In this document: positions 1 to 14,438 of the stretch, piece after piece
Numbering within the stretch: position 1 is the first letter of the stretch
Layout: every line of letters begins with the position of its first letter
Source of the DNA: an uncultured Clostridia bacterium
GTDB taxonomy: Bacteria > Bacillota > Clostridia > Christensenellales > Aristaeellaceae
NCBI GenBank assembly: GCA_947167215.1
Contig: CAMVHE010000016.1
Location: forward strand, 1-48,574
Direction: 5' to 3'
DNA length: 48,574 bases
Notes under the pieces: generated by a model
What the model saw: only the letters and a program-made list of their open reading frames with translations
What the model was told of the DNA's origin: nothing
Databases searched by the model: none
Position numbers and translations under genes: made by a program

Positions 1-55
1 CAGCCTTCTGGCAAAGTGCATGGAGACGGACCCTGATGACCGGCCTCATGATTTT
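1..55 (+). repeat. 55-nt exact repeat, copy 1 (kinase-domain end)
   Basis: Bases 1-55 are identical to 3538-3592. Both encode the end of a kinase domain (…LLAKCMETDPDDRPHDF) and are followed by a diverged TPR-like segment. The window begins exactly at this repeat, which suggests that an upstream identical kinase module broke the assembly. Confidence 0.9.
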
Positions 56-3000
56 CAGATCATTGAACAAAGCCTGCAATCCATTTACCTCGATACACTT
101 GGATGCCCATATCCACGTGAAAAAAACAATGCCGCTGTGGATACATCAGATTCACTCAATAACCGTGCGCTTACCTTTCTCGACCTGGATATGCCCGAAA
201 AAGCGGAAGAGTACTGGCGTCTTGCTTTGGAAAAGGATCCGGAGCATCCCGCATCAGTCTACAACCAGGGATTATTTCAATGGCGAAACGGCAGAATTCG
301 ATATGATGAGTTGATCCGCCGTCTCAGTGCTCTTGCAGCTTTTGACGATAAAGAACGTCTGCAGTCACAGATTGATACGGAAAAACAGGATACTGCCCCA
401 TGTGCATCATTTCGATGCAATCACCGGGAGATCCGGAATTTCTCATCTGTCATGAAATACCCCCAGGTAAAATTCAGTCCGGATGGCCGGACCCTATATT
501 CAGTCTTCGATGCTATTTCTGCCTACGACTTTGAATCTCTTGCCAAAAAATACTGCAATTTGTCTGAAATCGGGGATACTATAGCAGATATGCTGGATGT
601 AACCCCGGACAACAGATATCTGCTTTTTCACAAAATGCTTTCCTTCCATACCTCGCCTGTTCCCCGCGCTAAAAGTATCTGCGTCAATCCAGGTGAGAAC
701 ACAAAACTTTGGGTTGCTGATGCTGACACCGGTAAAATCCTGCACTGCATTTCCTGTCATGAAAAGGGGCTGACAGCCCTTTGCGCACTGCCAGACGGCA
801 CTCACTGTGTCACTGCAGGTGAAGACCATACCATATATCAGTGGGACCTGACATCCGGCGAAAGAGTAAATACTTATGAAACACTTCCCGAATTCAAACG
901 CCACAGTCCGATTCAGTGCCTTTGCGTCAACGGGGAAAAGAAGCTGCTTTGCGGTGTGTTTTCTCCCTACATCCTCCTGTGGGATGCCGTAACCTGCCGC
1001 CTGCTTCAAACGGCAAAAGCAGATATTCGTATCCGGGATGCCTGTTTTTCTCCGGATGGAACCGTCATCTACACCTGCGGCGATTCCGGCATCGCTGTGT
1101 GGGATGTGGAAACAATGAAGTGCACTGTCCATCCCACTGACGCCAGGCTGGAAAAAATCAAGGCTGATTCCAGTGGAAAGTTTCTGGTAACAGGCGACAC
1201 GGATGGCATGATCGTCCTGTGGGACACCAGTTCCTTCCGCTGCCTGCGATCTTTTCATGGGCATGTAAAACAAATCCAGTGTCTGGATATTCTCCCGGGC
1301 ATGGGCCGGATTATATCGACAGACCGGGCTGAAAATGCTCTGATCTGGAACACGGTTTCTTCTGTGCGACGCGCCTCATGGGAATTAAGCAGGATCAGGG
1401 AATATGCGGCAGTGATCGACCTCCAAAGAGCCAAAGAGCATCTGCGGGAAAAGATAAAATCTGCCTTGCGGGACAATGACATCCCTATGGCGCTCTCTCT
1501 CCTTCAGCAAGCTGAAAAAGAATATGAACAGCATGATTTCTTTGATCTGCGCAGGCAGATTGCCCGCTTCTGCATCCGTGGGAATCCCACAGGACAATAT
1601 GAATTTATTTCCTATCAGGCATCTGCCTGGATGGTAAACCGTTTCCCGGATGACAAAGGGACGGCCGTCTTTCATCCTCTGAACCATACCCTGGCTATTC
1701 GTTATCAGGATTCCCCGCTGATTGAACTGCGTGAAGATACAGGCAGTCCTGTCGGAAGCATACCGATGCCTGATAAAGACGAATTTGATTACTGTAATAT
1801 TCTGTCCAGCCTGTGCTATTCCCGTTCCGGAGAACTTCTTGCAATTGGCGGATATCAGGCTGTTCTTCTGGTTAATCCTGACAGCAAGGCCATCATCAGA
1901 AAACTGGAAGGAGATGCATATTTTTCCAAATTGCTTTTCAGTCCGGATGACCGGATGCTGGCTGGCTGCGGAAGCGATGGGGAGATTTACATATGGGAGA
2001 TTGAAACCGGAAGAACAATTCTGAGCAAGAGAGATCCCAGCATATTTATCTGCGGTGCATTATTCCTGCAAGATGGACAGCTTCTGGCTCTGCTTACGCC
2101 TGAAACCATTTTCTTCTATGCCATTCCCAGCGGAAGAAAGATTAAATCCATAGCACTTGATGCCGAATGCCGGCGATGGGCCCTGAGCCGCGATGGAAAG
2201 CTGCTTTTTCTGATCACGGATTCTACAGAGCGGAAGCTGCTTTCTTTAAGCACGGAAAACTGGAAAACTGTGGATCAGATGTTGCTGGATCCAGATGCAG
2301 AGGATTATTCTGATTTCTCATTTTGCATCAGCCCGGATGACAGTCTTCTGGTCATTGCAGAAAAGAAATTGCTCACTGTATGGTCTTTACCGAATCGCAG
2401 GTTGCATCTGTCATTTCCTATGCTGACAGATATCGATCAGGTTGCCTTTTCTCCGGACGGCAGCATTCTGCTTGCGGTCTGTGGGGATAAGGTACATTGC
2501 TGGGTATTGCAGCGTGAGCTTTCTTTCCCTGGCTGGCAGAATGAAGGGGATCAGACAATGCCTCTTGTCAGGCAGTTCATGGCCGTTTACCCTCATCCAG
2601 ATAAGAATCAGCAGCAGATGCTGCTTCAAGAGCTGGAAAACAAAGGCTTTGGATATATCCGTCAGCAAAACATCCTCGCCCTGCTGAACGGAAGTAAACA
2701 AGAGGACAGCGATCGAACCATACTGGCACAGCCGGAAAAATTCTTGCCTGAAACGGCAGTAAATGATTCTTCCGGGCCCTTTGAAAAGGGCGCTTTACTT
2801 CTGGACATTTACCAGATTGAGAGTGACGCCATTCATGGCGGCATGGGCAGTGTCTGGCGGGTGCATCATACCGGGTGGAATGTGGATCTGGCAATGAAGC
2901 GCCCCCAGCCTCAGCTGTTTGCAGATGAAACTGCCAAGCAGAATTTCATCAATGAATGTCAGAGCTGGATCAACCTCGGCCTGCATCCCAATATCGTGTC

Positions 3001-6000
3001 CTGCTATTACGTTCGTGAAATTGACGGCGTGCCTACTATTTTTTCCGAGTGGATGGAAAACGGCAGCCTGGAAAGTCATATTCAGAAAGGCACTCTTTAT
3101 GCAGGCAGTGAAAAGGAACAGCAGGCACGCCTGCTGGATATCGCCATTCAGTATGCCCGCGGCCTGCACTATGCCCACGAAAGCGGTCTGATCCATCAGG
3201 ATGTCAAGCCGGATAACCTGCTTCTGACCAGAGACTGGCAGGCAAAAGCCGCTGACTTCGGTCTGGCCCGGGCGCGCGGACAGCTCACTGTACTAGAGCA
3301 GCCCAAGACCCCCGGTGCCACCCAGATGGCTGCCTCCGGCGGCTATACCCCTGCCTACTGCTCCATGGAACAGATGGATGGGAAGCTGCTGACCCGACGC
3401 ACCGATATATACAGTTGGGCTGTCTCCGTCATGGAAATGTACCTGGGGTCCCGGCCCTGGCAGAATGGCGTGGTGGCAGGCATGAGCTGCCGCGATTACT
3501 TTGATGAATGCCGGGTGACCATGCCGGAAGCCCTGCGCAGCCTTCTGGCAAAGTGCATGGAGACGGACCCTGATGACCGGCCTCATGATTTTGCTTCCAT
3601 CGAAAAAGAACTTATACAAATCTACCAGAACACTTTAGGTGAAAGCTATACCCGACCAGAGCCTGAAGCTGCTGCCGACACTGCCGACAGTCTCAGTAAC
3701 CGTGCTTTAAGCTACCTGGACCTTGGAATGCCAAAGAATGCAGAAGCATGTTGGGAAAAAGCACTTTCTGCCAACCCTGATGCCGTCAGTGCAGTCTATA
3801 ATCAGAAGCTTTACCGAATCCTTTCTGACCCGAAGAACTGCAAAGATGGCTACACGCTGAGCAATAAGCTGCAGAATATGTACAGTGATATTCTCCAGAT
3901 GAACAACGGCAAGCCAACAGCACAGTCGGGTGAAGTGCTGGCAAACCTGTATGTATCAGATTATCACGGTCCCTTCGCAGAGCAATACATCCAGCAGGCG
4001 GCTGCCCGGTCCCCTGCAGAGTCCGCAGAGCATGCGGCATATGTCAAAAGGACAAAGCAATTAACAGAAGCATGGATGCCATTGCCTATAGACACAGATA
4101 GCTGTGGTTTTCTTGCCTTTGATGTAATGGACGATCGTTGCGCTGTAGCATGGCAGCAGGAAGAATCGGGAGAAAAACAATCCTGCCTTGCAGTTTTCGA
4201 TATTCCCCTGCGTCATGAACTGAATCGTCTGAAGGTGGAGCCTGACCTGTTCGCCGAAAACAGGCTTAAGCGCGTTATCCTGTGCCAGGAAGCTATCTAT
4301 CTTTGCGGACCTGACGGCTATTCCTTTGCCGCTTTTGACCCTGATACACTTGAAAGGCTGCCTACCTATGACCGGTGCGATTTTACCAGACGCAGTGATT
4401 TTAGAGAATGGCCCTATGTCAGATCATGCGACAATCTGCGGGAAATTCGGCGTGACGCCAATACGGAATGGGCAGAGCAGCATGGGCGAACAGTTGCCTG
4501 GGATGCCATAGCTTCACTCTGGCGGTCCCGAAAAACGAACAATACCCGTAACGGTGGTGTCAATCTTAAACCTTCGGGCAGTGCCAGACGAAACCGTATG
4601 GAAGCCTCTCTGCCTGCCACGGGATTGTCCGAGGATACTTACGCTATATCATTAAACAGCAGCCACCGTTGGCTCCTGGTATATAAGGAACCATACTACA
4701 AAACAGATAAGCGGTATTTTGCCATCTATGATCTGAGCGTTTTCGGACGGGTTCCGGATTATCTGATCTGCCGGGCATTCTCTTATGCAGAGACATTTGG
4801 CAGGCAGAATGAAATAAAACATCTGCTAAATGATGCAGAGGCATGTTTACAGAAAAATCAGGTCGCAGAAACCCTGGCCCTGTTGGATCAGGCCTACGCT
4901 TTGGAACCCAATCATCCCAGTCCAGAATGGTCGCGCATTAACAACGCTGTCGGCCGCCATCAGTCATGCTGCCGCAAAGCACTGCGCGGTGCCCGCTACG
5001 CCAACACGCTCAACGCCTCTCAGCTTCCTGCTTTTCCGCGCGATGTCGGAGGATATGACCTTTCGGGCATGCTTCCGGGCGGTTCCATGATGCTCATGAT
5101 GTCCCTTGCCTCTGATGCCCTACCGTATGGGTTCTTCACAATAGACCGCTGCCGGGATCATCTGTTTTTTTCTCAAAATGCAGACGTCTGGACAGGGCAC
5201 CTGCAGGGAGGAGAAGCTGCCGTGCATATTCCTGGAAACATGCTGTCTTCCGGGGCGATAGGCATACGGGATATCCGGCGTGGTTTGCACGGCGAAGAAA
5301 AGCATCTGGTTTATGCCTGTGCTTCCGGTATTTTTTCCGTCTGGGATGCCAGCACTTATCCGGCAGTCTTCCGCAGCGCTGTTCGTTTCGGTCAGGCAGT
5401 GCCTGCAGATGCAGAAAATGACCCTGCATATCTTAACAGGCTTCCGCCGCTGAACCCGACAGATCCGGACATCCAATGGGCACTTGAGCCCTACCTCATT
5501 TCCCTGAATCGTCCCTGCAACGCTACCATAGCTCTCGTGCAAAGCCGTGTGCTGAACCGGCTGGGACCTGACAGGATTGATGGCCTTTGCGCCGTGTCGG
5601 TCATTGACCTCAGGTCCATGCAGCTGCTGCATACAATGTTCGTACACCACAAACGGCGACTTGACAGTTATGGATGCAGCCATCCCATCGGTATGGACAT
5701 GCTGATGGACATTTCTCCCGAAGGCGATTTGTTCCTGTGGCATACCCCCTCCCACATTCCTTTCCTGTGGTTGATTTCCGAGGCTGGAGAATTCCATGAA
5801 ATTGAACTGGGCAGTGGCGGTGCGGATCGTTTGCGGAAAGATGGAACAGCCTATATCGGCCTTTCCTCTTTCGGTCCGGAGGGTGAAAAGTACAAACAAA
5901 TAACGCTTGACTGGAAGTATGGGCTTCGAACTGACAAGACAATGTTCTTCCCTGACAGGACCGGTATGAGCGAATCCGAATATCAGGCATGCCTCCATGA

Positions 6001-6184
6001 TGAGTCCAAACCCGGTGTCCGGTCAGATCCCCTTGCTGATCTGCTTGCTTCCATCGAACAGCAGGCAAGGAGCAGATTACAGGAAAGGCCTCCCGAAAAA
6101 GCGAAGCCCATAGATCCCATGGCAGAAATGATGGCTGAAATGGAGCGCAGGGCAAGAGAGCGTCTTAAAAACAAAAAGAAATAA
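2..6184 (+). CDS. Giant Ser/Thr protein kinase with TPR and WD40-like propeller modules (5' partial)
   Basis: The frame is open from base 2, so the true start lies outside the window; numbering here counts from the Met at base 20. The first ~25 residues are the tail of one kinase domain. They are followed by a TPR-like pair (about 44-80), a WD40-type propeller (about 140-440) with repeated W-D strand ends and D-G turns, a helical linker, and a second propeller (about 540-850). A complete second kinase domain spans about 930-1190: glycine loop GGMGSVW at 940, Lys960, an HQD (not HRD) catalytic loop with Asp1061, and an intact DFG Asp1079. It is followed by another TPR-like pair and further propeller-like sequence. 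The C-terminus (about 2000-2054) is charged and helical with an internal duplication. I see no membrane helix or signal peptide, so it should be cytosolic. It leads the accessory operon and probably phosphorylates a product of it; that is inference. Confidence 0.9.
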   Translation, partial: SLLAKCMETDPDDRPHDFQIIEQSLQSIYLDTLGCPYPREKNNAAVDTSDSLNNRALTFLDLDMPEKAEEYWRLALEKDPEHPASVYNQGLFQWRNGRIRYDELIRRLSALAAFDDKERLQSQIDTEKQDTAPCASFRCNHREIRNFSSVMKYPQVKFSPDGRTLYSVFDAISAYDFESLAKKYCNLSEIGDTIADMLDVTPDNRYLLFHKMLSFHTSPVPRAKSICVNPGENTKLWVADADTGKILHCISCHEKGLTALCALPDGTHCVTAGEDHTIYQWDLTSGERVNTYETLPEFKRHSPIQCLCVNGEKKLLCGVFSPYILLWDAVTCRLLQTAKADIRIRDACFSPDGTVIYTCGDSGIAVWDVETMKCTVHPTDARLEKIKADSSGKFLVTGDTDGMIVLWDTSSFRCLRSFHGHVKQIQCLDILPGMGRIISTDRAENALIWNTVSSVRRASWELSRIREYAAVIDLQRAKEHLREKIKSALRDNDIPMALSLLQQAEKEYEQHDFFDLRRQIARFCIRGNPTGQYEFISYQASAWMVNRFPDDKGTAVFHPLNHTLAIRYQDSPLIELREDTGSPVGSIPMPDKDEFDYCNILSSLCYSRSGELLAIGGYQAVLLVNPDSKAIIRKLEGDAYFSKLLFSPDDRMLAGCGSDGEIYIWEIETGRTILSKRDPSIFICGALFLQDGQLLALLTPETIFFYAIPSGRKIKSIALDAECRRWALSRDGKLLFLITDSTERKLLSLSTENWKTVDQMLLDPDAEDYSDFSFCISPDDSLLVIAEKKLLTVWSLPNRRLHLSFPMLTDIDQVAFSPDGSILLAVCGDKVHCWVLQRELSFPGWQNEGDQTMPLVRQFMAVYPHPDKNQQQMLLQELENKGFGYIRQQNILALLNGSKQEDSDRTILAQPEKFLPETAVNDSSGPFEKGALLLDIYQIESDAIHGGMGSVWRVHHTGWNVDLAMKRPQPQLFADETAKQNFINECQSWINLGLHPNIVSCYYVREIDGVPTIFSEWMENGSLESHIQKGTLYAGSEKEQQARLLDIAIQYARGLHYAHESGLIHQDVKPDNLLLTRDWQAKAADFGLARARGQLTVLEQPKTPGATQMAASGGYTPAYCSMEQMDGKLLTRRTDIYSWAVSVMEMYLGSRPWQNGVVAGMSCRDYFDECRVTMPEALRSLLAKCMETDPDDRPHDFASIEKELIQIYQNTLGESYTRPEPEAAADTADSLSNRALSYLDLGMPKNAEACWEKALSANPDAVSAVYNQKLYRILSDPKNCKDGYTLSNKLQNMYSDILQMNNGKPTAQSGEVLANLYVSDYHGPFAEQYIQQAAARSPAESAEHAAYVKRTKQLTEAWMPLPIDTDSCGFLAFDVMDDRCAVAWQQEESGEKQSCLAVFDIPLRHELNRLKVEPDLFAENRLKRVILCQEAIYLCGPDGYSFAAFDPDTLERLPTYDRCDFTRRSDFREWPYVRSCDNLREIRRDANTEWAEQHGRTVAWDAIASLWRSRKTNNTRNGGVNLKPSGSARRNRMEASLPATGLSEDTYAISLNSSHRWLLVYKEPYYKTDKRYFAIYDLSVFGRVPDYLICRAFSYAETFGRQNEIKHLLNDAEACLQKNQVAETLALLDQAYALEPNHPSPEWSRINNAVGRHQSCCRKALRGARYANTLNASQLPAFPRDVGGYDLSGMLPGGSMMLMMSLASDALPYGFFTIDRCRDHLFFSQNADVWTGHLQGGEAAVHIPGNMLSSGAIGIRDIRRGLHGEEKHLVYACASGIFSVWDASTYPAVFRSAVRFGQAVPADAENDPAYLNRLPPLNPTDPDIQWALEPYLISLNRPCNATIALVQSRVLNRLGPDRIDGLCAVSVIDLRSMQLLHTMFVHHKRRLDSYGCSHPIGMDMLMDISPEGDLFLWHTPSHIPFLWLISEAGEFHEIELGSGGADRLRKDGTAYIGLSSFGPEGEKYKQITLDWKYGLRTDKTMFFPDRTGMSESEYQACLHDESKPGVRSDPLADLLASIEQQARSRLQERPPEKAKPIDPMAEMMAEMERRARERLKNKKK
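3538..3592 (+). repeat. 55-nt exact repeat, copy 2 (kinase-domain end)
   Basis: This is the second copy of the sequence at 1-55, at the C-terminal end of the intact kinase domain of the same gene. The match stops within DNA coding for RPHDF, after which the two copies differ at both base and protein level. Confidence 0.9.
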
Positions 6185-6197
6185 GAGGAACAAGAAA

Positions 6198-6635
6198 ATG
6201 AAATCAGCAAAAACTGCCATATTAATTATTCTGGGTGTACTGTTGATTGCGTTTATCATTGGCTGTTTCATTCTTATGTTCACAATTCCACTGAAAGCAG
6301 CATATGAAGTGACCGAACAAACCCAGAAAATGAAAGCAGCATGGTCAGCTGGCAATGTATGCCAGGGTACCGCCGTGAAAGTCAGCGATCAGACCAGCGC
6401 ATTCGATCGTATCTTCTTCAAAACAACAATCTACGGCGTGGAATGGCACTATACTGTCGATGGTCAGGAATATACCTCTCCTTCTTATCGTTTCAGCGGA
6501 AAATTGTTTGATGATCTCGATGAGGATGGGGATGGAACATGTGAGGTAGATGTCCATTATGATCCGAATGACCCGCAGACTTCAATTGTACGCGGAGTTC
6601 TTACGGGGAACCGGAAAATGCTAGTTGATGAATGA
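6198..6635 (+). CDS. DUF3592-like single-pass membrane protein
   Basis: This 145-residue protein has one N-terminal hydrophobic helix (about residues 7-32), then a soluble beta-rich domain. The late motif VHYDPNDPQTS resembles the Y-[DN]-P-x-x-P signature of DUF3592 proteins. A ribosome site (AGAGGAA) lies just upstream and the gap to the kinase gene is 13 bases, so the two should be co-transcribed. It is the only obvious membrane component of the operon and could anchor or sense for the soluble kinase and protease. The family has no established biochemical role. Confidence 0.75.
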   Translation: MKSAKTAILIILGVLLIAFIIGCFILMFTIPLKAAYEVTEQTQKMKAAWSAGNVCQGTAVKVSDQTSAFDRIFFKTTIYGVEWHYTVDGQEYTSPSYRFSGKLFDDLDEDGDGTCEVDVHYDPNDPQTSIVRGVLTGNRKMLVDE

Positions 6636-6651
6636 AAGGAGACACAGCAAG

Positions 6652-6909
6652 ATGTTTTGAAAAAAAGAATGCAGACTCAGCAAGATTCTTTCAAAAAGTG
6701 AGCAGGGCATTGTAAGGACCTGCCTGCTGACCGGCATAGTCCAGGGCTCCACAAAAGAAATCCAGGAAGTCTGTGCAGAAATGCTGGATGTGGTCAAAGA
6801 GGATGACATCATCATGCTGGCAGCCGTTCAGGGGTTGATTAATCTGTGCTCAGCAGTAGACAGTGAAGGAACCCGTACAATCTGCAAAAAACTTCAAAAA
6901 TATGTATAA
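6652..6909 (+). pseudogene. Fourth MGLF-family small protein with in-frame TGA at codon 3
   Basis: A good ribosome site (AAAGGAG) is followed ten bases later by ATG TTT TGA. The same frame then stays open for 82 more codons to TAA at 6907-6909. The encoded protein (MF-stop-KKECRLSKILSKSEQ…) aligns with the three downstream small proteins. The TGA sits where they have Gly or Ser (LFGK, LFSF), and the helix MLDVVKEDDIIMLAAVQGL matches their G-x-M-x-K-x-[DE][IL]-x-x-[AS]-I-x-C segment. A GGA-to-TGA change would explain it. It may be a recent null allele, a base-call error or a readthrough case. No alternative in-frame start keeps the conserved N-terminus. Confidence 0.65.
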
Positions 6910-6934
6910 ATCTATCATGAAAGGATAAAGCGTC

Positions 6935-9900
6935 ATGGAAATCTCCTATTCCCTGAAATATGTGATGATGCGGGCACAAGCTGAAGCTCAGAATATTGGT
7001 GCAAATGAGCCCGGGATAGAGTATCTCTTTCTTGGCCTGCTCAAGCTCGCTGAAATCCGTGCCAAAGATGCTTTCAACCTACCGGATAAGGATATGAAGG
7101 CAGTCGATGAGGATATTACTGCCATTAAATCCACTTTTGAAAAAGAAGGTGTTGACACCGACCGCATACGTCCTCTGCTTCGTCACGAACTGAAACGGGG
7201 GGCAAAAAGTGATGCGGGCAAACTGTCGGAGTATCTCACCAGCGCAGATGAGCATGCCCGAAAGCGTGATGAAAAAGAAATCTGGGGGCTTGATCTGCTG
7301 TACGCAATCCTCAAAAAGCCGACTGACACTATTTTGCAGGTATGCAAGCTGAAAGGTGTAATCAGCGGTGAAGAAGCAAAAAAGCAACAGCAGCAGGAAG
7401 AAGAAGCAGCTGCTGCACTTGCGCAGGAAATGACACCGGAATTTCTTTCCCAACTGACTGAGAGGATCCGCGAAATGCGGGCACAGCTGCTTGGTATTGT
7501 TCAGGGGCAGGATCCCGTGGTACATGCATTTGCCGAAGGCATTTTTGCTGCCGAAGTGCTATCCGCCAGCGATGAAAAGCGAAAGCGCCCCCGTGCTATC
7601 TTTGTTTTTGCCGGTCCTCCAGGTGTGGGTAAAACCTTTCTCGCAGAACAGGCTGCTGAAGCATTGGGACTGCCTTTCAAGCGCTTTGATATGTCTACTT
7701 ATGCCGATCATCAATCCTATATGGGGCTTGTTGGATTTGAAAAGAGCTATCAGGGTGCTAAGGAAGGCCTGCTGACCGGATTCGTAAAGAAGAATCCTCA
7801 CTCCTTTCTGCTGTTCGATGAAGTTGAAAAAGCCCATCTCAACACTGTGCAGCTCTTTTTGCAGATTCTCGACGCCGGCCGTTTATCTGACCGTTACTTA
7901 AGCGAAGATATTTCCTTCAAGGATACTATCATCATTTTTACCACAAATGCCGGGAAATCCCTTTATGAAGGTGATAACCGTCAGAATGCCGCAGCCGTAC
8001 CGCGTCAGACACTGATCAGTGCTCTGAAAGGCGAAACCGATCCTCGCACTGGCCAGCCTTTCTTCCCCGCTGCCATCACCAGCCGTCTCTCAACTGGATG
8101 GCCGCTGCTTTTTAACCATTTGCAGGCCCACGATCTGGAGAAGATCAGCCGCCGGGAGCTGGATCGTTTCGGGAAGCTGTTTGAGAAACAGTATGGCGTG
8201 CATGTCACCTTTGATTCGCTTGTACCTGCAGCTCTCATGTTCCAGGAAGGTGCTGCAGACGCGCGTACCGTTCGTGCACAAACTGAATTGTTCTTTAAGA
8301 ATGAGATCTTTAAGCTGTGCCGTCTGTGGGATCAGGAACATTTTCTGGATGCTCTTAAGCACTTAACCGAAATCCGTTTTTCCACCGAAACCGTTCAGCT
8401 TCCTGCGGATATCCGTCCCCTTTTCTATTGCGACGAAAAGCCGGAAATCCTGATCTATGGCGATAAGGAATTTGCCTCACGCTGCCGTGACCAGCTTGCT
8501 GGATATACGATCTATGACTCTCAGAACATCGATCAGGCGCTTGCTCTGGCCGGAGAAAAAGACCTCCGTCTGGTTCTGCTGGACGTCACCGAAAAAAGCG
8601 TTACACCCGAGCAGTGGATGGCCACCATGATGGAAGGTATGAACAGCGGCGTATTCCACTCCACCGGCGGTTTCAATTATGCCCCTATGGCAGCTCGGGC
8701 ACTTCGGGATGGCAGCCAGCTGCTGCGAACTCTCCAGGAACGTCTGCCGGAATTGCCTATTTACCTGCTGGAAATGCCGGATTTCGCTCTGGACGAGGAA
8801 CTCTCCATGAGTTTCATCCGTTCTGGCGCCCGTGGCAAAATCACCGCACCCGGTAATGATTTTTCCGTTTTTGAAGATACTCTCTCCGATATCTGCCGCC
8901 AGCTGTATTTGCAGAGTGCTGCATCCCGTCTCGCTTCGGAGCGCAAGGTGCTGTTCTTTGATACAGCTCCCATGCTGTCCCCGGATCAGCGGTGTGTCAC
9001 TGTGCGTCTGCGGAATTTTGCCCTCAAGCGCGCTGCATCCGCTGAAGATGCCGGTCAGGTACTGGATGATGTTGAAAAGCCTGATATTCATTTTGACGAT
9101 GTAGTCGGTGCCGCAGATGCCAAACAGGAGCTGAAATTCTTCACCGAATATCTGAAAAACCCGAAAAAGTTCTGCGCACAAGGCCTGAAACCGCCTAAGG
9201 GCATCCTGCTTTACGGTCCTCCAGGCACAGGCAAGACGATGCTCGCAAAAGCATTGGCCGGAGAATCGGATGTTGCTTTCCTTCCTACTGTAGCCAGCTC
9301 GTTTGTGACTAAATATCAGGGAAGCGGACCGGAATCCATTCGAAAGCTGTTTACTCGCGCCCGCCGCTATGCTCCGGCAATCATCTTCATTGATGAGATC
9401 GATGCCATTGGCCGTAAGCGAGGGGAAAGCAACAGCGCTCATGGCGAAGAGATGGCCCTCAATGCCCTGCTCACGGAAATGGACGGTTTTTCCGTGGACC
9501 CACGTCGCCCGGTATTTGTCATTGCCGCTACCAACTTTGATGTGGAGGAAGGAAAGGGCGGTCTTGGCGTTATAGATCCTGCACTGGCACGGCGTTTCGA
9601 TCGCCGGATTCTGGTTGACCTGCCCAATGAGGAAGAACGTGAAAAGCTTTTGCGCATTCTGCTTAAAAAGCAGCCCGGCAACACTGTCAGTGACGAAATG
9701 ATCCGGCGCACAGCAGGGCGAACCATGGGCATGAGTCCTGCTGCACTGACCGGTATGGTAGAATCCGCCAGCCGCATGGCTGTGAAAGCAGGAAAGCCAC
9801 TGGACGACGCCATGCTGGATGAAGCACATGAACTCATGCGTTATGGCGCAAAGAAAGACTGGGGCTATGAATACCTGGAGCGTGTTGCGCGTCATGAAAG

Positions 9901-10393
9901 CGGTCATGCCTTCCTGTGTTACTTGGGCGGCAACACTCCGTCTTATCTGACCATCGTTGCCCGTGGCGATCATGGTGGATACATGGAGCATTCAAACAAG
10001 GATATGGGACCTCTTTCCACCCGGGAAGAGCTGATCGCCCGTATTCGCACAAGCCTGGGCGGCAGGGCTGCCGAGATCGCTTATTACGGCACCGAAGAGG
10101 GAATAAGCACTGGCGCATCAGGCGATTTGGAGCAGGCGACCCGCACCGCTGCTGCCATGTTATGTGCTTATGGCATGGACAGTGACTTCGGCCTGGCAGC
10201 AATGGACCTTCGTGATGCATTGAAAGATCATGACACAAGAGAAAAGATCAATGAGATTCTGCGCCGGGAAATGAAAAATACTGTGGAAATCATCCGTCAG
10301 AATAAGCACCGTATTGACCGCATGGTCAATGCGCTGATGAAGAAGAACAAACTTACGGGAACGGAAATAGAAGAACTGCTGAAGGAGAGCTGA
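6935..10393 (+). CDS. Clp-N / AAA+ / receiver-like / FtsH-type AAA+ and M41 zinc protease hybrid
   Basis: This 1152-residue protein has several modules in order. Residues 1-145 resemble a Clp N-domain. Residues ~180-480 form a ClpX/ClpB-type AAA+ module with Walker A GPPGVGKT (227-234) and Walker B Asp295-Glu296. Residues ~500-660 are an alpha/beta region resembling a receiver fold. Residues ~715-960 form an FtsH-type AAA+ with Walker A GPPGTGKT (761-768), Walker B Asp820-Glu821 and a second region of homology ending ARRFDRR. The rest is an M41 protease with HESGH (987-991) and third zinc ligand Asp1064 in GASGDLEQAT. The two N-terminal helices of true FtsH are absent, so it should be soluble. 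All catalytic residues are present. It probably unfolds and degrades targets chosen by the kinase system or by the small MGLF proteins; that is inference. Confidence 0.88.
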   Translation: MEISYSLKYVMMRAQAEAQNIGANEPGIEYLFLGLLKLAEIRAKDAFNLPDKDMKAVDEDITAIKSTFEKEGVDTDRIRPLLRHELKRGAKSDAGKLSEYLTSADEHARKRDEKEIWGLDLLYAILKKPTDTILQVCKLKGVISGEEAKKQQQQEEEAAAALAQEMTPEFLSQLTERIREMRAQLLGIVQGQDPVVHAFAEGIFAAEVLSASDEKRKRPRAIFVFAGPPGVGKTFLAEQAAEALGLPFKRFDMSTYADHQSYMGLVGFEKSYQGAKEGLLTGFVKKNPHSFLLFDEVEKAHLNTVQLFLQILDAGRLSDRYLSEDISFKDTIIIFTTNAGKSLYEGDNRQNAAAVPRQTLISALKGETDPRTGQPFFPAAITSRLSTGWPLLFNHLQAHDLEKISRRELDRFGKLFEKQYGVHVTFDSLVPAALMFQEGAADARTVRAQTELFFKNEIFKLCRLWDQEHFLDALKHLTEIRFSTETVQLPADIRPLFYCDEKPEILIYGDKEFASRCRDQLAGYTIYDSQNIDQALALAGEKDLRLVLLDVTEKSVTPEQWMATMMEGMNSGVFHSTGGFNYAPMAARALRDGSQLLRTLQERLPELPIYLLEMPDFALDEELSMSFIRSGARGKITAPGNDFSVFEDTLSDICRQLYLQSAASRLASERKVLFFDTAPMLSPDQRCVTVRLRNFALKRAASAEDAGQVLDDVEKPDIHFDDVVGAADAKQELKFFTEYLKNPKKFCAQGLKPPKGILLYGPPGTGKTMLAKALAGESDVAFLPTVASSFVTKYQGSGPESIRKLFTRARRYAPAIIFIDEIDAIGRKRGESNSAHGEEMALNALLTEMDGFSVDPRRPVFVIAATNFDVEEGKGGLGVIDPALARRFDRRILVDLPNEEEREKLLRILLKKQPGNTVSDEMIRRTAGRTMGMSPAALTGMVESASRMAVKAGKPLDDAMLDEAHELMRYGAKKDWGYEYLERVARHESGHAFLCYLGGNTPSYLTIVARGDHGGYMEHSNKDMGPLSTREELIARIRTSLGGRAAEIAYYGTEEGISTGASGDLEQATRTAAAMLCAYGMDSDFGLAAMDLRDALKDHDTREKINEILRREMKNTVEIIRQNKHRIDRMVNALMKKNKLTGTEIEELLKES

Positions 10394-10401
10394 TTCATAA
10401 A

Positions 10402-10737
10402 ATGGGACTTTTTGGAAAAACATATGATTTGGGCGTGCTCAATCAGAATGAGCATGCATACCTCAGTACTGTGATGGGACATGTCGCCACAGGATTCTAC
10501 CAGCCCTACAATTTCAGCGGCAAAGCCGATGTCATGGCAATGGCCGGCAAAGCCCGTACAGCAATTGAGCATATGCGCAAGAATAAAATGCACAAACAGG
10601 ATATTGAAACTGCCATTTTCTGTCTTGAAGCCGCTAAACGCATTCAGATTGAGAACAACATGACAAATACAGAACATGATCAGTCCTTTATTGCATGTCT
10701 GGACTCAGCCGCAGACAAACTGAAAGCATCAATTTGA
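10402..10737 (+). CDS. MGLF-family small protein 1
   Basis: This 111-residue soluble, mainly helical protein begins MGLFGK. It starts 8 bases after the protease gene stops, with its ribosome site (GGAGAG) inside the end of that gene, so the two are tightly coupled. The segment K-M-H-K-Q-D-I-E-T-A-I-F-C-L-E-A matches the other family members. I recognise no named domain. Repeated tandem copies beside an unfoldase-protease suggest adaptors, substrates or inhibitors. Confidence 0.8.
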   Translation: MGLFGKTYDLGVLNQNEHAYLSTVMGHVATGFYQPYNFSGKADVMAMAGKARTAIEHMRKNKMHKQDIETAIFCLEAAKRIQIENNMTNTEHDQSFIACLDSAADKLKASI

Positions 10738-10775
10738 TCCACTGTCACAGAAACATAGAGAGAAGGTAATTTTCC

Positions 10776-11105
10776 ATGGGACTATTTGGAAAAAGGAATT
10801 ATAAGCTCACAGCTCTCTCTCCGGACGAACAGTCAGAAATGCGCTCCGTTCTTTATGATTTTGCCTTCACCATTCCCTTCGCCAGATCAGCCCCTTGGGG
10901 GATCAGCCGTGAAGAGGCACAACTGGCGCTTGACCATGCTAATGCCGGTGAAATGACAAAGAACGACATCAAAATGGCTATAAACTGTATGAACGGATAC
11001 CTGATATGGATGGAGCAGAAAAACATTTTTTCTCCAGACAGGAAAAAAGAGCTGCAGACGGTACTGCCTGACATCCGAAAAAAGCTGGAAGCCATAATGA
11101 AATGA
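10776..11105 (+). CDS. MGLF-family small protein 2
   Basis: This 109-residue paralogue begins MGLFGKRNYKL and has the family pattern Y-K-L-x-x-L-x-x-x-E near the N-terminus and G-E-M-T-K-N-D-I-K-M-A-I-N-C in the middle. A ribosome site (AGAGAAGG) precedes the ATG. It has no signal peptide or membrane helix. Apart from the shared anchors it has diverged strongly from paralogue 1, more than a recent duplication would show. Confidence 0.8.
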   Translation: MGLFGKRNYKLTALSPDEQSEMRSVLYDFAFTIPFARSAPWGISREEAQLALDHANAGEMTKNDIKMAINCMNGYLIWMEQKNIFSPDRKKELQTVLPDIRKKLEAIMK

Positions 11106-11401
11106 TTCTGTTGGCATTCATATCAGGCATATGACGTATGCACTGGTTTTGCATAATTTGAATTGCATTTTTGACTCCGGAAAACCATCATACTGCATTA
11201 TGGCTTGAGGAAAACATGGCTCGAGGAAAACACAGAAAAATGCACCACTATTATCAATGCTCAAACCATCAGACATGAACGAGGGGAGCATTGTTCCAGT
11301 ACGATAGTCATATCCTTCAAGCCACTGAACTGCAGTAATTGGTCCGTCGGTACAAAATTCAATTAATGCGCATATGCGTATAAAACAAAGGAGGAATCGC
11401 A
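11106..11401. other. 296-bp gap between MGLF genes 2 and 3; unexplained minus-strand frame
   Basis: There is no plus-strand gene here. A minus-strand frame (11118-11417) stays open for 99 codons and contains a protein-like stretch around TDGPITAVQWLEGYDYR, but it runs against the operon and I see no clear ribosome site. It may be a decayed insert. Just before MGLF gene 3 lies the perfect palindrome CGCATATGCG (11369-11378) touching a -10-like TATAAA, which suggests a separate regulated promoter for that gene. Confidence 0.35.
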
Positions 11402-11722
11402 ATGGGACTGTTTTCATTTAGGCCGTACAAGCTTGACTCACTCAACTTTGCAGAAAAATCAGCCCTCAAAGCAGCATTGGAGGTGGCCCAGATGCTTGAT
11501 ACCCAGGGCCAGCTCAAAAAATCGCTCAACTCCGCATTAAAGGGCCTCGAAAAGGGCAAAATGTCCAAGTCGGAACTGACAACCTCTATTGCCTGTCTGG
11601 CGGCTTCCCTCACCGCCCTTTCCAAAACCGAAGATCCTGATCGTTCCTCGCTGCTCGCCAAGAAGAAAGTCGCCACTGTTGCCATGGCCCTCGCACTTGA
11701 CAAACTCAAAAACCTGCTGTAA
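11402..11722 (+). CDS. MGLF-family small protein 3
   Basis: This 106-residue paralogue begins MGLFSFRPYKL, with a strong ribosome site (AAAGGAGG) 6 bases before the ATG. It keeps the family segment G-K-M-S-K-S-E-L-T-T-S-I-A-C-L and is rich in Leu, Ala and Lys, so it is probably all-helical. Its own upstream palindrome and -10-like sequence may let it be expressed apart from the rest. A strong hairpin follows about 80 bases downstream. Confidence 0.8.
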   Translation: MGLFSFRPYKLDSLNFAEKSALKAALEVAQMLDTQGQLKKSLNSALKGLEKGKMSKSELTTSIACLAASLTALSKTEDPDRSSLLAKKKVATVAMALALDKLKNLL

Positions 11723-11800
11723 TCAGGAAAATGAAGCTGGAATACGTTCATACTTTCTCAGTTTAAAAGCCCGATCAAGGAAACAATCACATCTATATCC

Positions 11801-11823
11801 GGCCGCTTCTGAAGCGGCCTTTA
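11801..11823 (+). terminator. Hairpin ending the accessory operon
   Basis: A perfect 9-bp stem (GGCCGCTTC / GAAGCGGCC) is followed by TTTACTATT. The T-run is imperfect, but the position after the last operon gene supports a terminator. Confidence 0.65.
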
Positions 11824-11904
11824 CTATTGTCCATCTTCTTTCTCGCATGCATACCAATAGCTGCTGATTCCGGCTGCGCTCCCATAAGCAGTTTCTACGT
11901 GTTT

Positions 11905-12339
11905 TCATAGGTAATGTTTCCAGCTTTTCGTGTTTCCTTGTTCTCTCCTTTCCGGCTTCTTCCTGCCAGGTCCGTTCGTTTCATTCGTCGAAATCCTTTG
12001 TAATGTGCTCCCCTCCTGTTTGACATTCTTTGCTACATTGATACCGCGGCCATGCTTCGCTCCGCATCCGGAACATACCCATTCCCGTACGGCTGGGTTC
12101 TTTACTTCCGGATTATTATAGCCGCATGCTGTGCACAGCTGGGAAGACGGGTAATAGGATCTCACTTTCTGGAACTTCCTTCCATACCATTCGCTTTTAT
12201 ACTCCAGCATGGTTATCAGTTCACTCCACCCGCTGTCCATGATCCTCCTTGCCCGAAGGGTGATGTACTTCTGCTGCGCGGCTGTCCTGCCTGTATAAGG
12301 ATCATGCAGCGGGCAAGGCAAGTAAAGACCGGTTTGCAA
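11905..12339 (-). pseudogene. tnpB: TnpB (IS200/IS605 OrfB) C-terminal remnant
   Basis: The 144-codon frame matches only the last third of a TnpB RNA-guided nuclease. It has a helix ending GWSELITMLEYK, the Zn ribbon (CTACGY … CSGCGA) and the RuvC-III region. The usual D-R-D-x-N-A-A is read here as G-R-G-I-N-V-A, so the catalytic Asp is gone. The N-terminal domain and the first RuvC motifs are missing and no TnpA lies nearby. It is a dead fragment beside a second mobile-element fragment at the island edge. Confidence 0.8.
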
Positions 12340-12340
12340 G

Positions 12341-12655
12341 GATGAGCAGCAGATTTTGAAAGCGGATGTGGAACAGTGACAGTAGGATATTGAAGCACAG
12401 GAATAAAAGAATCATGAATTGGAACTTTCTATCCAGAAAGTGAAGAAAAGTGCGGATTTAAAGGAACAGGCGTCATACGCCTTGCAATATCTGATCAAGT
12501 TGAACCACATTGGAGTGTCTGACAAGAGCGGCTGTAAGCGCCATCAGGAAATCCGCATTGAGTATGACAGCGTGGAATTTATCCCTCTGGATAGACTGAT
12601 GAAACCAGAAAATGGCATGATCCTAAGATCATGCCATACCTGCAATACTTTATGA
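12341..12655 (+). pseudogene. Large serine recombinase C-terminal remnant (DUF4368-type tail)
   Basis: Read in one frame from 12341, this gives a coiled-coil stretch (DEQQILKADVEQ…) interrupted by TGA, TAG and TAA stops. It then continues with SIQKVKKSADLKEQ and the tail QEIRIEYDSVEFIPLDRLMK. This matches the C-terminus of transposon and conjugative-element serine recombinases. The resolvase and zinc-ribbon domains are absent. The stops and truncation make it a clear pseudogene. Confidence 0.72.
12612..12637 (-). terminator. Inverted repeat, likely terminator of the minus-strand lipoprotein operon
   Basis: An 11-bp perfect inverted repeat (ATGGCATGATC, 4-base loop) is followed by TTTTC when read on the minus strand. 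It lies about 60 bases past the lipoprotein stop, inside the recombinase remnant. Confidence 0.5.
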
Positions 12656-12694
12656 ATCTGTCTTATGAGCATGCCCATCTGTTGCCGCCCTTTT

Positions 12695-13084
12695 TCAGAT
12701 ATCGTCGGAACGCACGCCTTCCCCGTAACGGGTCAGTTCATATTGTCCTTCCGCATTCTTCTTATAGTCAAAGCCGTAGTTTCCCTGGACCCCATTCTTA
12801 TCATAGGTAATAATCACTATTACATGATCACTGGCACCATTCTTGGACACCACCGCCGTCTCAAGAATGGTTGCATCCGTTGCCTTGGTAAACATTTCCG
12901 TGGCCATTTCCCGCACAATCGGCACAAAACTCCAATCGATTTCTCCCCCGTTGTTATTGGGAGTATCCAACGCTTCCCTGGAATAGGAGGACCCCACAGC
13001 CTGCAATCCCTGTTTCACGGTCTGGCAACCGCTGAGCGAAACAATCATTGCAAGCAGAAATAACACTATTATTCCTTTTTTCAC
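12695..13084 (-). CDS. Small lipoprotein of unknown function
   Basis: This 129-residue protein has a type II signal peptide with lipobox LSGC, so it should be lipid-anchored outside the membrane at Cys20. The mature part is short, acidic to neutral and shows no family that I recognise. It starts 4 bases after the MocR-like gene ends, which suggests co-transcription with that regulator. Confidence 0.75.
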   Translation of the reverse strand: MKKGIIVLFLLAMIVSLSGCQTVKQGLQAVGSSYSREALDTPNNNGGEIDWSFVPIVREMATEMFTKATDATILETAVVSKNGASDHVIVIITYDKNGVQGNYGFDYKKNAEGQYELTRYGEGVRSDDI

Positions 13085-13088
13085 TTTT

Positions 13089-14438
13089 TCACACTTTCCA
13101 GGCTTCTTTCAGCAATCGCAAGCCTTCCCGAATTTCCTTTTCTTCCATGCTGGAAAAGCTGAGGAGAACAATGCGCTCATTGTAACCCTCACTGTTGACC
13201 AGACAGAAATCAACCATCCTGGATACCTGAACACCTTTTTGCTGTGCACACGAAACCAACTGGTCCGCCTGTACTGTTCCTGACGCCAATACAGAAAGAA
13301 ACAGCCCGTTATTTGCTTCTTGAATTTCCCCCAGTCCAAGCTCTGTGATGCCTTTTTCCATAGCACTGCGTCGGTTGCGATAAAGCGTTCTCATTGCATG
13401 AATATGGCGTTCAAAGTGGCCTCCTGCAATAAACTTGCAGAGGGTTTCCTGTTCAAATCCTGTAACAGGGCTGGCACTGCCCAGACTTTCATACTGGGCT
13501 GCCAGCGTCTCCGGCAATACCATAAAGCTGATACGTAATCCGGGTGCCAGCGTTCTCGTAAAAGTGTTCATATAAATTACCCGGCTGTCCTGTTCCTCTG
13601 CATACAGCGGAACCTCTCCGTCACCGGTGAACTCACATTCATAGTCATCTTCAAGAATCCATGCCCGGGTTTCTTTTGCCCATGCCCGGAGCGCTGCCCG
13701 CTGCTCCGGAAGCATCCGGCTGCCCGTCGGAAACTGATGTGTCGGAGTCACATAAGCAGCTCCAGCACCGGATGTATAAAGCATCCTGATATCTATCGCT
13801 CCGTCTCTCAGCGGCAATGGAGCCAGTCTTGCCCCATGAATCGACAGACCACGGCGTACCCGCGCATACCCGGGGTCTTCTACTGCAAAAGGCCGGTCCC
13901 GCCCGATAAGCCCCAGAACCGCTCCCACCAGCTGATCTGTACCGGAACCGATAACCACATGCTCCGGATTAACTACCATTCCCCGCTCCCGGTAAAGAAG
14001 CTTCGCAATTTCCTGCCGCAGGGCAAGAAGTCCTTTCGGACCGCAGGAGAGTAAAAGGGACGCTTTCTGTTCGCTGAGAACCGTGCGCATCAGTTTCGCC
14101 CAGGTGTGATACGGAAAGCGGGCAGCATCAACAGCACCGGTGCGAAAGTCGTACCGTATTTCCGGAGCAGTCTGTGGAAAGTGCTTCTTCTGTGTTCCGT
14201 CCCAGATGCTGTAGATGCCGGATTTGGGTCTGCTCTCACAATATCCTTCCTCTATCAGCCTGTTATACGCCGAGCTTACGGTCTGAGGGCTGACAGAGAG
14301 ATGTTCTGATAATTCTCTGCGTGAAGGCAATTTTTCCCCTTTGGCAATTTTCCCGTCACAAATGCTCTCTGCAATGGCTTCAAACAGCTGATCATACAGC
14401 GTCGTCCGGCTGTTCGGATTCAGTTTGTACGTGAACAT
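13089..14438 (-). CDS. MocR/PdxR-type GntR-aminotransferase regulator lacking the PLP lysine
   Basis: This 449-residue protein has an N-terminal GntR winged helix (YDQLFEAIAESICDGKIAKG … LPSRRELSEHL … TVSSAYNRL) and a fold-type I aminotransferase domain with the PLP-site pieces EDDYECEF and GSGTDQL. In the family the Schiff-base lysine sits in [ST]-F-S-K-x-L-x-P; here the sequence is TFTRTLAPGLR with Arg295 (codon AGA). It may have lost PLP chemistry. The start overlaps the end of trmD by 47 bases in another frame, with a GGAAG ribosome site inside trmD. Confidence 0.88.
   Translation of the reverse strand: MFTYKLNPNSRTTLYDQLFEAIAESICDGKIAKGEKLPSRRELSEHLSVSPQTVSSAYNRLIEEGYCESRPKSGIYSIWDGTQKKHFPQTAPEIRYDFRTGAVDAARFPYHTWAKLMRTVLSEQKASLLLSCGPKGLLALRQEIAKLLYRERGMVVNPEHVVIGSGTDQLVGAVLGLIGRDRPFAVEDPGYARVRRGLSIHGARLAPLPLRDGAIDIRMLYTSGAGAAYVTPTHQFPTGSRMLPEQRAALRAWAKETRAWILEDDYECEFTGDGEVPLYAEEQDSRVIYMNTFTRTLAPGLRISFMVLPETLAAQYESLGSASPVTGFEQETLCKFIAGGHFERHIHAMRTLYRNRRSAMEKGITELGLGEIQEANNGLFLSVLASGTVQADQLVSCAQQKGVQVSRMVDFCLVNSEGYNERIVLLSFSSMEEKEIREGLRLLKEAWKV

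Follow-up and report, generated by a model that had tools for sequence, protein, structure and literature searches.

A rare, predicted soluble Clp-FtsH hybrid protease with linked Ser/Thr kinases in one of its two clades

Apart from Lon and some others, bacterial AAA+ proteases are known either as membrane-bound enzymes, as is FtsH, or as Clp rings that work with a peptidase made separately. FtsH normally has an N-terminal transmembrane anchor, and ClpA, ClpB and ClpC have two Clp-type rings. Here, we describe a protease that joins parts of both types and is encoded in a run of genes headed by a giant Ser/Thr kinase on a 48,574-nucleotide contig of an uncultured Clostridia bacterium (contig C16 of a 204-contig genome, analyzed whole from its first base and called the window below). 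The nearest working analogy is ClpC with the arginine kinase McsB (PMC8370763), a case of degradation guided by phospho-arginine. The FtsH-containing ternary systems (eLife 2020, PMC7159879) are defined by MoxR and vWA proteins and include a tandem-AAA+ protein whose AAA+ domains are both of FtsH type, the first being inactive. A literature search of limited coverage, with many journals outside it, returned no description of the present protease or operon; the sequence-only reading of the window, made without database searches, had likewise named no described system with this set of genes. A soluble Clp-FtsH fusion encoded next to a phosphatase and Ser/Thr kinases with a changing sensor part would offer a compact bacterial example, open to testing, of protein destruction directed by phosphorylation.

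The hybrid gene and its parts are arranged as follows:

6935..10393, plus strand: predicted soluble hybrid AAA+ metalloprotease of 1152 amino acids (Pfam AAA_2, AAA and Peptidase_M41)
6935..7399, plus strand: ClpC-like N domain, residues 1-155 (profile search)
7445..8230, plus strand: first AAA+ ring, Clp D2-like, residues ~171-432 (Walker A GPPGVGKT, Walker B LLFDE)
8231..9082, plus strand: middle region of the protease, residues 433-716, holding a probably degenerate receiver-like domain (residues ~503-668)
9068..10393, plus strand: FtsH-type AAA+ and M41 peptidase, residues 712-1152 (HESGH)

The first ring was matched by the ClpA model of NCBIfam (E 2.6e-46, residues ~171-432), and Pfam assigned Peptidase_M41 at 1.1e-25. 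Residues 712-1150 were matched by the FtsH model TIGR01241 (E 1.3e-100), with 337.9 bits against a curated cut-off of 600 bits that applies to the full protein. As a single sequence the N domain had no match in Pfam, and a profile built from 13 hybrids and one kinase-fused copy matched ClpC N domains best (6emw, E 8.8e-6). In the first alignment, all 14 hybrids retain an intact HEXXH motif and intact Walker A and Walker B motifs in each of the two rings. Hydropathy scanning of 24 hybrids revealed no membrane segment in 20, including the window protein, which we therefore infer to be a soluble version of FtsH; a borderline hydrophobic segment was located within the N domain at three other loci (L043, L044 and L047; loci with relatives are numbered with an L) and at a doubtful start at L108. 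For residues ~503-668, the AlphaFold2 model (per-residue confidence score, pLDDT, 79) resembled many receiver domains in Foldseek, with a probability of 1.00, a best E of 2.2e-6 and target TM-scores reaching 0.81. Sequence alone gave no significant match (E 0.11 at best in PDB, 0.13 in Pfam), and the call rests on the fold. The sequence-only reading had proposed a soluble double-AAA+ Clp-FtsH hybrid, and the protein is a true hybrid, with N domain, Clp ring, FtsH ring, M41 peptidase and the receiver-like domain that had escaped that reading.

Set beside FtsH, the window protease has the FtsH AAA+ ring and the M41 zinc peptidase with its HEXXH motif, but it scores below the FtsH cut-off, has no transmembrane segment and adds a ClpC-like N domain, a Clp-type ring and a receiver-like domain. 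With Clp/Hsp100 proteins it shares the Clp N domain; the difference lies in a single Clp-type ring followed by a second ring of FtsH type. Because the peptidase is fused into the hybrid, this build would require no ClpP partner. The likeness to ClpC and McsB, a ClpC-like N domain in a kinase context, is a works-like analogy only, as the kinases here are of Ser/Thr type and only one Clp ring is present. The FtsH ternary systems of PMC7159879 likewise comprise several genes, one of them for a tandem-AAA+ protein that has an FtsH-type ring; in the hybrid, however, ring 1 is of Clp type and its Walker A and B motifs are intact. No MoxR or vWA gene was found among the window genes and the neighbor genes scanned, which were part of all neighbors. 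An assignment to the ternary systems was rejected on these two grounds. One shortened relative (L117:6573-9458) has altered Walker B in ring 1 and altered Walker A and B in ring 2 while HEAGH is kept, and is possibly a protease that lost its ATPase.

The kinase-protease system is real and rare, and its protease is unusual. A scan of the genome collection by short exact patterns, which retrieves near relatives only, yielded 14 loci, 12 of them with full-length relatives at 49-86% identity; the other two (L050 and L051) were removed as partial AAA+ matches, and L103 and L104, which give the same matches as L038 and L040, were counted once with their counterparts. Used as a marker, the middle region matched 13 of the 300 genomes in the family sample (10 strongly, three weakly through open reading frames (ORFs) of 245-254 amino acids). 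In the class sample 23 of 391 matched, two of them strongly (the own genome and G650); the other 21 were weak (E 3e-5 to 1e-3, mostly ORFs of ~230-260 amino acids) and are read as ordinary response regulators. The phylum sample contained three matches at E<=1e-10 among 398 genomes (the own genome, G851 and G1058). In a search with the full protease, the best matches in the 28 other members of the genus never fell below 1e-67, which is where ordinary FtsH matches lie; the distant hybrid of G046 gave 1.2e-160. No homologue of the middle region (E<=1e-5) turned up among 50,697 phage records or among 72,556 plasmid records, and carriage of the protease by phages or plasmids is accordingly not supported. 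Among the matches listed from a scan of viral contigs with the full profile (80 loci), none spanned the whole hybrid; their best segments reached at most 39% identity, mostly over the first AAA+ ring.

A tree of the protease (21 rows) separated two clades at 100/100 support. Clade A comprises the window and 12 relatives (L038-L049). Clade B comprises nine loci, eight placed by the tree (L058, L105-L109, L111 and L112) and L110 placed by its neighbors. The tree does not include L110, L116 and L117, which are partial or degenerate. L116, which is cut by a 4.4 kb contig and has an N domain resembling clade A, and L117 are counted in neither set of loci. The kinase of the window lies directly at the contig start:

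2..6184, plus strand: giant Ser/Thr kinase gene (ORF of 2060 amino acids, open at the contig edge)
2..6184, plus strand: modules of this kinase, namely the tail of a first kinase domain, WD40 propellers, a second kinase domain, TPR and a further C-terminal region

Searches by tblastn detected a kinase domain at least 60% identical to that of the window at 10 of the 12 clade-A relatives (L038-L044 and L047-L049), upstream of the protease in nine of the ten and downstream of it in L039. An FHA-kinase is encoded near the protease in nine of the 12 (L038, L040, L042-L044 and L046-L049), and a PP2C phosphatase accompanies it at the same nine, with a further PP2C stub at the contig start of L039; in L047, Pfam gave FHA at 1.4e-15 and PP2C at 3.7e-12. 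These counts bear out the recurrent kinase-protease link that had been suggested from the window alone. L046 has other kinases, and the contig of L041 starts inside its kinase gene. An FHA-kinase profile run against the 300 family genomes returned two matches at E<=1e-40, both in genomes with a clade-A hybrid, and none in the remaining 298, which include the own genome. In L039, the PP2C stub is separated from the protease by PfkB and PTS genes (L039:2183-8337). In L046, kinases fused to a BrxC/D-like ATPase and to DUF5050 occupy the usual place of the WD40 kinase (L046:3439-9887). A protein with several hydrophobic segments is encoded upstream of the FHA-kinase in L038 (L038:2339-3844), with homologues in L040 and L048; the upstream homologue in L040 shows a weak trace of the ClpC-like N domain (E 0.0035).

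Pfam assigned Pkinase (1.1e-32), WD40 and TPR to the giant kinase. A complete kinase domain with HQDVKPDN and DFG motifs is located at residues ~932-1210, followed by TPR, and the first residues read as the tail of another, repeated kinase domain. The multi-module Ser/Thr kinase proposed earlier is therefore upheld in its Pkinase, WD40 and TPR parts, while the gene itself is incomplete, its 5' end being cut at the contig edge. Across 36 pairs of nine clade-A kinases, median identity was 63.5% for the protease, 63% for the kinase domain and 26% for the part after the kinase domain, where some alignments are short. When the post-kinase parts were aligned end to end, the median was 27% compared with 24% for shuffled partners (36 pairs). 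L044 and L047 illustrate this divergence, with 88% identity in the protease, 82% in the kinase domain and 27% in the post-kinase part, and here the sensor part looks exchanged and the engine kept. Pfam detected WD40 in some of the kinases and TPR without WD40 in L040, L049 and L042. In L042, the N-terminus of the kinase carries the ClpC-like N domain of the protease as a fusion (L042:5009-8770, E 5.7e-19), which is a physical hint of docking between protease and kinase.

Small proteins adjoin the protease in both clades, yet without a detectable relation between the clades. In the window they form a family that we call MGLF:

10402..10737, plus strand: MGLF small protein 1, 111 amino acids (ORF and family alignment)
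10776..11105, plus strand: MGLF small protein 2, 109 amino acids (ORF and family alignment)
11402..11722, plus strand: MGLF small protein 3, 106 amino acids (the copy closest to the MGLF copies of relatives)

The three align as one family, as expected from the claim of several diverged copies; identity to copy 3 is 27% for copy 1 and 26% for copy 2. Searches of Pfam, NCBIfam and PADLOC (E<=0.01) returned nothing for any of them. Copy 3 was predicted as a four-helix protein (pLDDT 72), and the best Foldseek match to this model had an E of 0.25. In the 300 family genomes, strong MGLF matches were restricted to three, which are exactly the three with a clade-A protease; a fourth match (E 0.0065), which carries a stop, was read as chance. 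In clade B, one to three YbjN-like proteins are encoded close to the protease at eight of the nine loci (none at L107), although these are not eight independent cases, since four of the genomes (G164, G210, G279 and G295) share one genus (g55). All 12 clade-B YbjN-like proteins align as one family. Six of the 12 were compared with PF10722 (cut-off 22 bits), two scoring above the cut-off, three below it at E<=0.006 and one having no match. YbjN proteins are said to act via protein-protein interaction (PMC5398634). A single family uniting MGLF and YbjN-like proteins was rejected (hhalign probability ~0.1%). Between a YbjN-like pair and the protease in L058, a CARF-PD-(D/E)XK nuclease gene was found (L058:8708-10030, PADLOC 5.4e-36), which suggests a link to cyclic-oligonucleotide signaling.

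Taken together, clade A probably encodes a system of regulated proteolysis that is gated by phosphorylation and works with small adaptors and with sensors that can be exchanged. A cue would be detected by sensor kinases whose C-terminal sensor modules, such as WD40 propellers and TPR, are exchangeable. FHA domains read phosphothreonine, and the FHA-kinase may relay or read this mark, which the PP2C phosphatase would reset. The phospho-signal would then direct a soluble, presumably hexameric tandem-ring protease onto target proteins: a phosphorylated adaptor or substrate would dock on the ClpC-like N domain, the receiver-like domain being another likely docking site, and both rings would thread the substrate into the chamber of the M41 zinc peptidase. 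The MGLF proteins, and the YbjN-like proteins in clade B, are likely adaptors that carry or license substrates.

Several observations weigh against phosphorylation-gated proteolysis or narrow it. A receiver signature consists of an acidic pocket, a phospho-acceptor Asp, Thr/Ser and Lys; the strand-3 Asp is present in 22 of 24 rows and the remaining signature positions vary, so the domain is probably a degenerate receiver. The C-terminal part of the kinases is not exchanged in every pair, as it is clearly alike in L043/L047 (85%), L038/window (53%), L038/L040 (37%) and L040/window (35%), and 19 of the 36 pairs exceeded the highest shuffled value, so that a trace of likeness is often left. MGLF genes, which track the clade-A protease in the family sample, were found near the protease at only four of the 12 clade-A relatives (L038-L041). 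The queries of the FHA-kinase and MGLF searches in the family genomes were built partly from the positive genomes, which inflates the scores of those genomes and does not affect absence elsewhere. At L045, tblastn found none of these kinases, no FHA-kinase and no PP2C in the available stretch, and at the nine clade-B loci no kinase homologue was found in the available stretches (some of them short, at 12-15 kb; L110 begins inside the protease). Phospho-control can therefore not be assumed for the whole protease family, and the kinases are one partner set rather than an invariant. Scattered proteases without kinase or MGLF neighbors, which the sequence-only reading had named as refuting a joint system, are thus seen in part, namely in clade B and at L045 as far as their stretches reach. 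Finally, the own assembly yielded neither an FHA-kinase nor a PP2C of this type; matches there reached at most 34% identity and lay elsewhere (a separate kinase and PP2C on C1, weak matches on C8 and C151). We infer that the window system has both; the contig break is a simple, though not proven, reason for their absence.

A broader account, which we put forward tentatively, treats the conserved soluble tandem-ring protease as a platform for signal-triggered proteolysis that takes different front ends by lineage. One lineage would use kinases whose sensor modules have been swapped, together with a phosphatase and an FHA reader; the other would use YbjN adaptors resembling chaperones of the type III secretion system, once with a CARF nuclease of cyclic-oligonucleotide type. 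The ClpC-like N domain, found on the protease and once on a kinase, would be the plug. If true, prokaryotes would have a counterpart to the protein destruction that a signal induces through Ser/Thr phosphorylation.

The protease could also serve general stress responses or protein quality control, in a role related to Ter-type stress operons, an explanation that we consider somewhat doubtful. Clp N domains and FtsH rings belong to the machinery of protein quality control, and in L045 genes for TerD-domain, PRTase_2-TRSP, StiP-PELOTA and HAD proteins lead directly into the hybrid protease (L045:1607-9843). This adjacency to TerD and StiP genes is seen at one of the 12 clade-A relatives, and Ter genes were not seen among the neighbors scanned elsewhere (a partial scan, with the left flank of the window missing). 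Rarity and a changing sensor part are also ill-suited to a housekeeping role, and the genome already holds two other FtsH-like ORFs (40-41%) and Clp-like matches. Several shorter ORFs before the four L045 genes look like TerD by eye.

Rather unlikely, in our assessment, is an anti-phage or other conflict system in which the kinases sense invasion and release the protease on proteins of the invader or of the host cell. The rare and patchy occurrence of the protease, the fast-changing sensor part and the CARF nuclease gene of L058 are in keeping with it, as are the HipA-like and macro-domain genes beside the protease in L048 and two relatives from bins labelled Chloroflexota among Bacillota, which suggest transfer or mis-binning. 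Against this, PADLOC matches of the window kinase and protease were confined to kinase or AAA+ domains. The likeness to the PD-T4-6 and MADS defense kinases is limited to the kinase domain: some short PD-T4-6 models were covered almost completely (positions 7 to 275 of 292), yet this corresponds to ~280 of the 2060 kinase residues, and beyond the kinase the one likeness to a MADS part was of a generic AAA+ kind, to mad8 (5.8e-8). The middle region is absent from the phage and plasmid records searched, and the CARF gene is present at one of nine clade-B loci. Of ten neighbors scanned in five loci, two were toxin- or defense-like, both in L048, where HipA-like and macro-domain genes lie just downstream of the protease (L048:14399-16341); the others were acyltransferase, clostripain, S-layer, methyltransferase, transport or unassigned genes.

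It is unlikely that the MGLF or YbjN-like proteins are substrates or toxins under protease control instead of adaptors. Their multiple, diverged copies next to the protease would suit such a role, whereas the lack of any Pfam, NCBIfam or PADLOC match places MGLF in no toxin family, and YbjN relatives are described as interaction proteins (PMC5398634). Least probable is that a multi-kinase signaling operon and the protease are independent modules merely traveling together: although clade B and L045 lack these kinases as far as their stretches reach, PfkB/PTS genes intervene in L039 and a TnpB remnant sits at the window locus edge, the kinase stays upstream of the protease in nine of 12 relatives at 60-86% protease identity, the Clp_N-kinase fusion exists in L042, and no FHA-kinase (E<=1e-40) was found in family genomes lacking the clade-A protease.

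The remaining features of the locus are a small membrane protein gene and its right-hand boundary:

6198..6635, plus strand: DUF3592 small membrane protein (Pfam; hydrophobic segment 1-38)
11801..11819, plus strand: terminator-like hairpin of 8 pairs (6 GC) with a T-rich tail
11905..12339, minus strand: remnant of a TnpB-type transposon protein at the right edge (Pfam Cas12f1-like_TNB, 1.6e-19)

DUF3592 (31.4 bits, cut-off 25.3) was found near the protease at one of the 12 clade-A relatives and is not a constant part of the system. The sequence-only reading, right on the protease and the kinase link, had over-read DUF3592 and MGLF as general members and missed PP2C and the FHA-kinase, which it could not see because of the contig break. 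As it had stated, six ORFs run in one direction on the plus strand between 2 and 11722 and end at a hairpin, with a mobile-element remnant to the right; its tiny gaps apply to three of the intervals (13, 8 and 38 bases) and not to the second and fifth (299 and 296 bases). The hairpin is weak evidence alone, as 6000-13200 contains 11 terminator-like sites compared with 7.6 +/- 2.6 in shuffled sequence. The left border of the system falls outside the contig, and the genes to the right make it look as if the system had been acquired and inserted next to an old neighbor. These genes are a small gene with a lipoprotein-like start, judged by eye, and a GntR-aminotransferase (MocR-type) regulator (window 12695-14438); the small gene is kept in 18 of 29 genus genomes, and the next gene is also kept in at least eight of 17 fetched loci.

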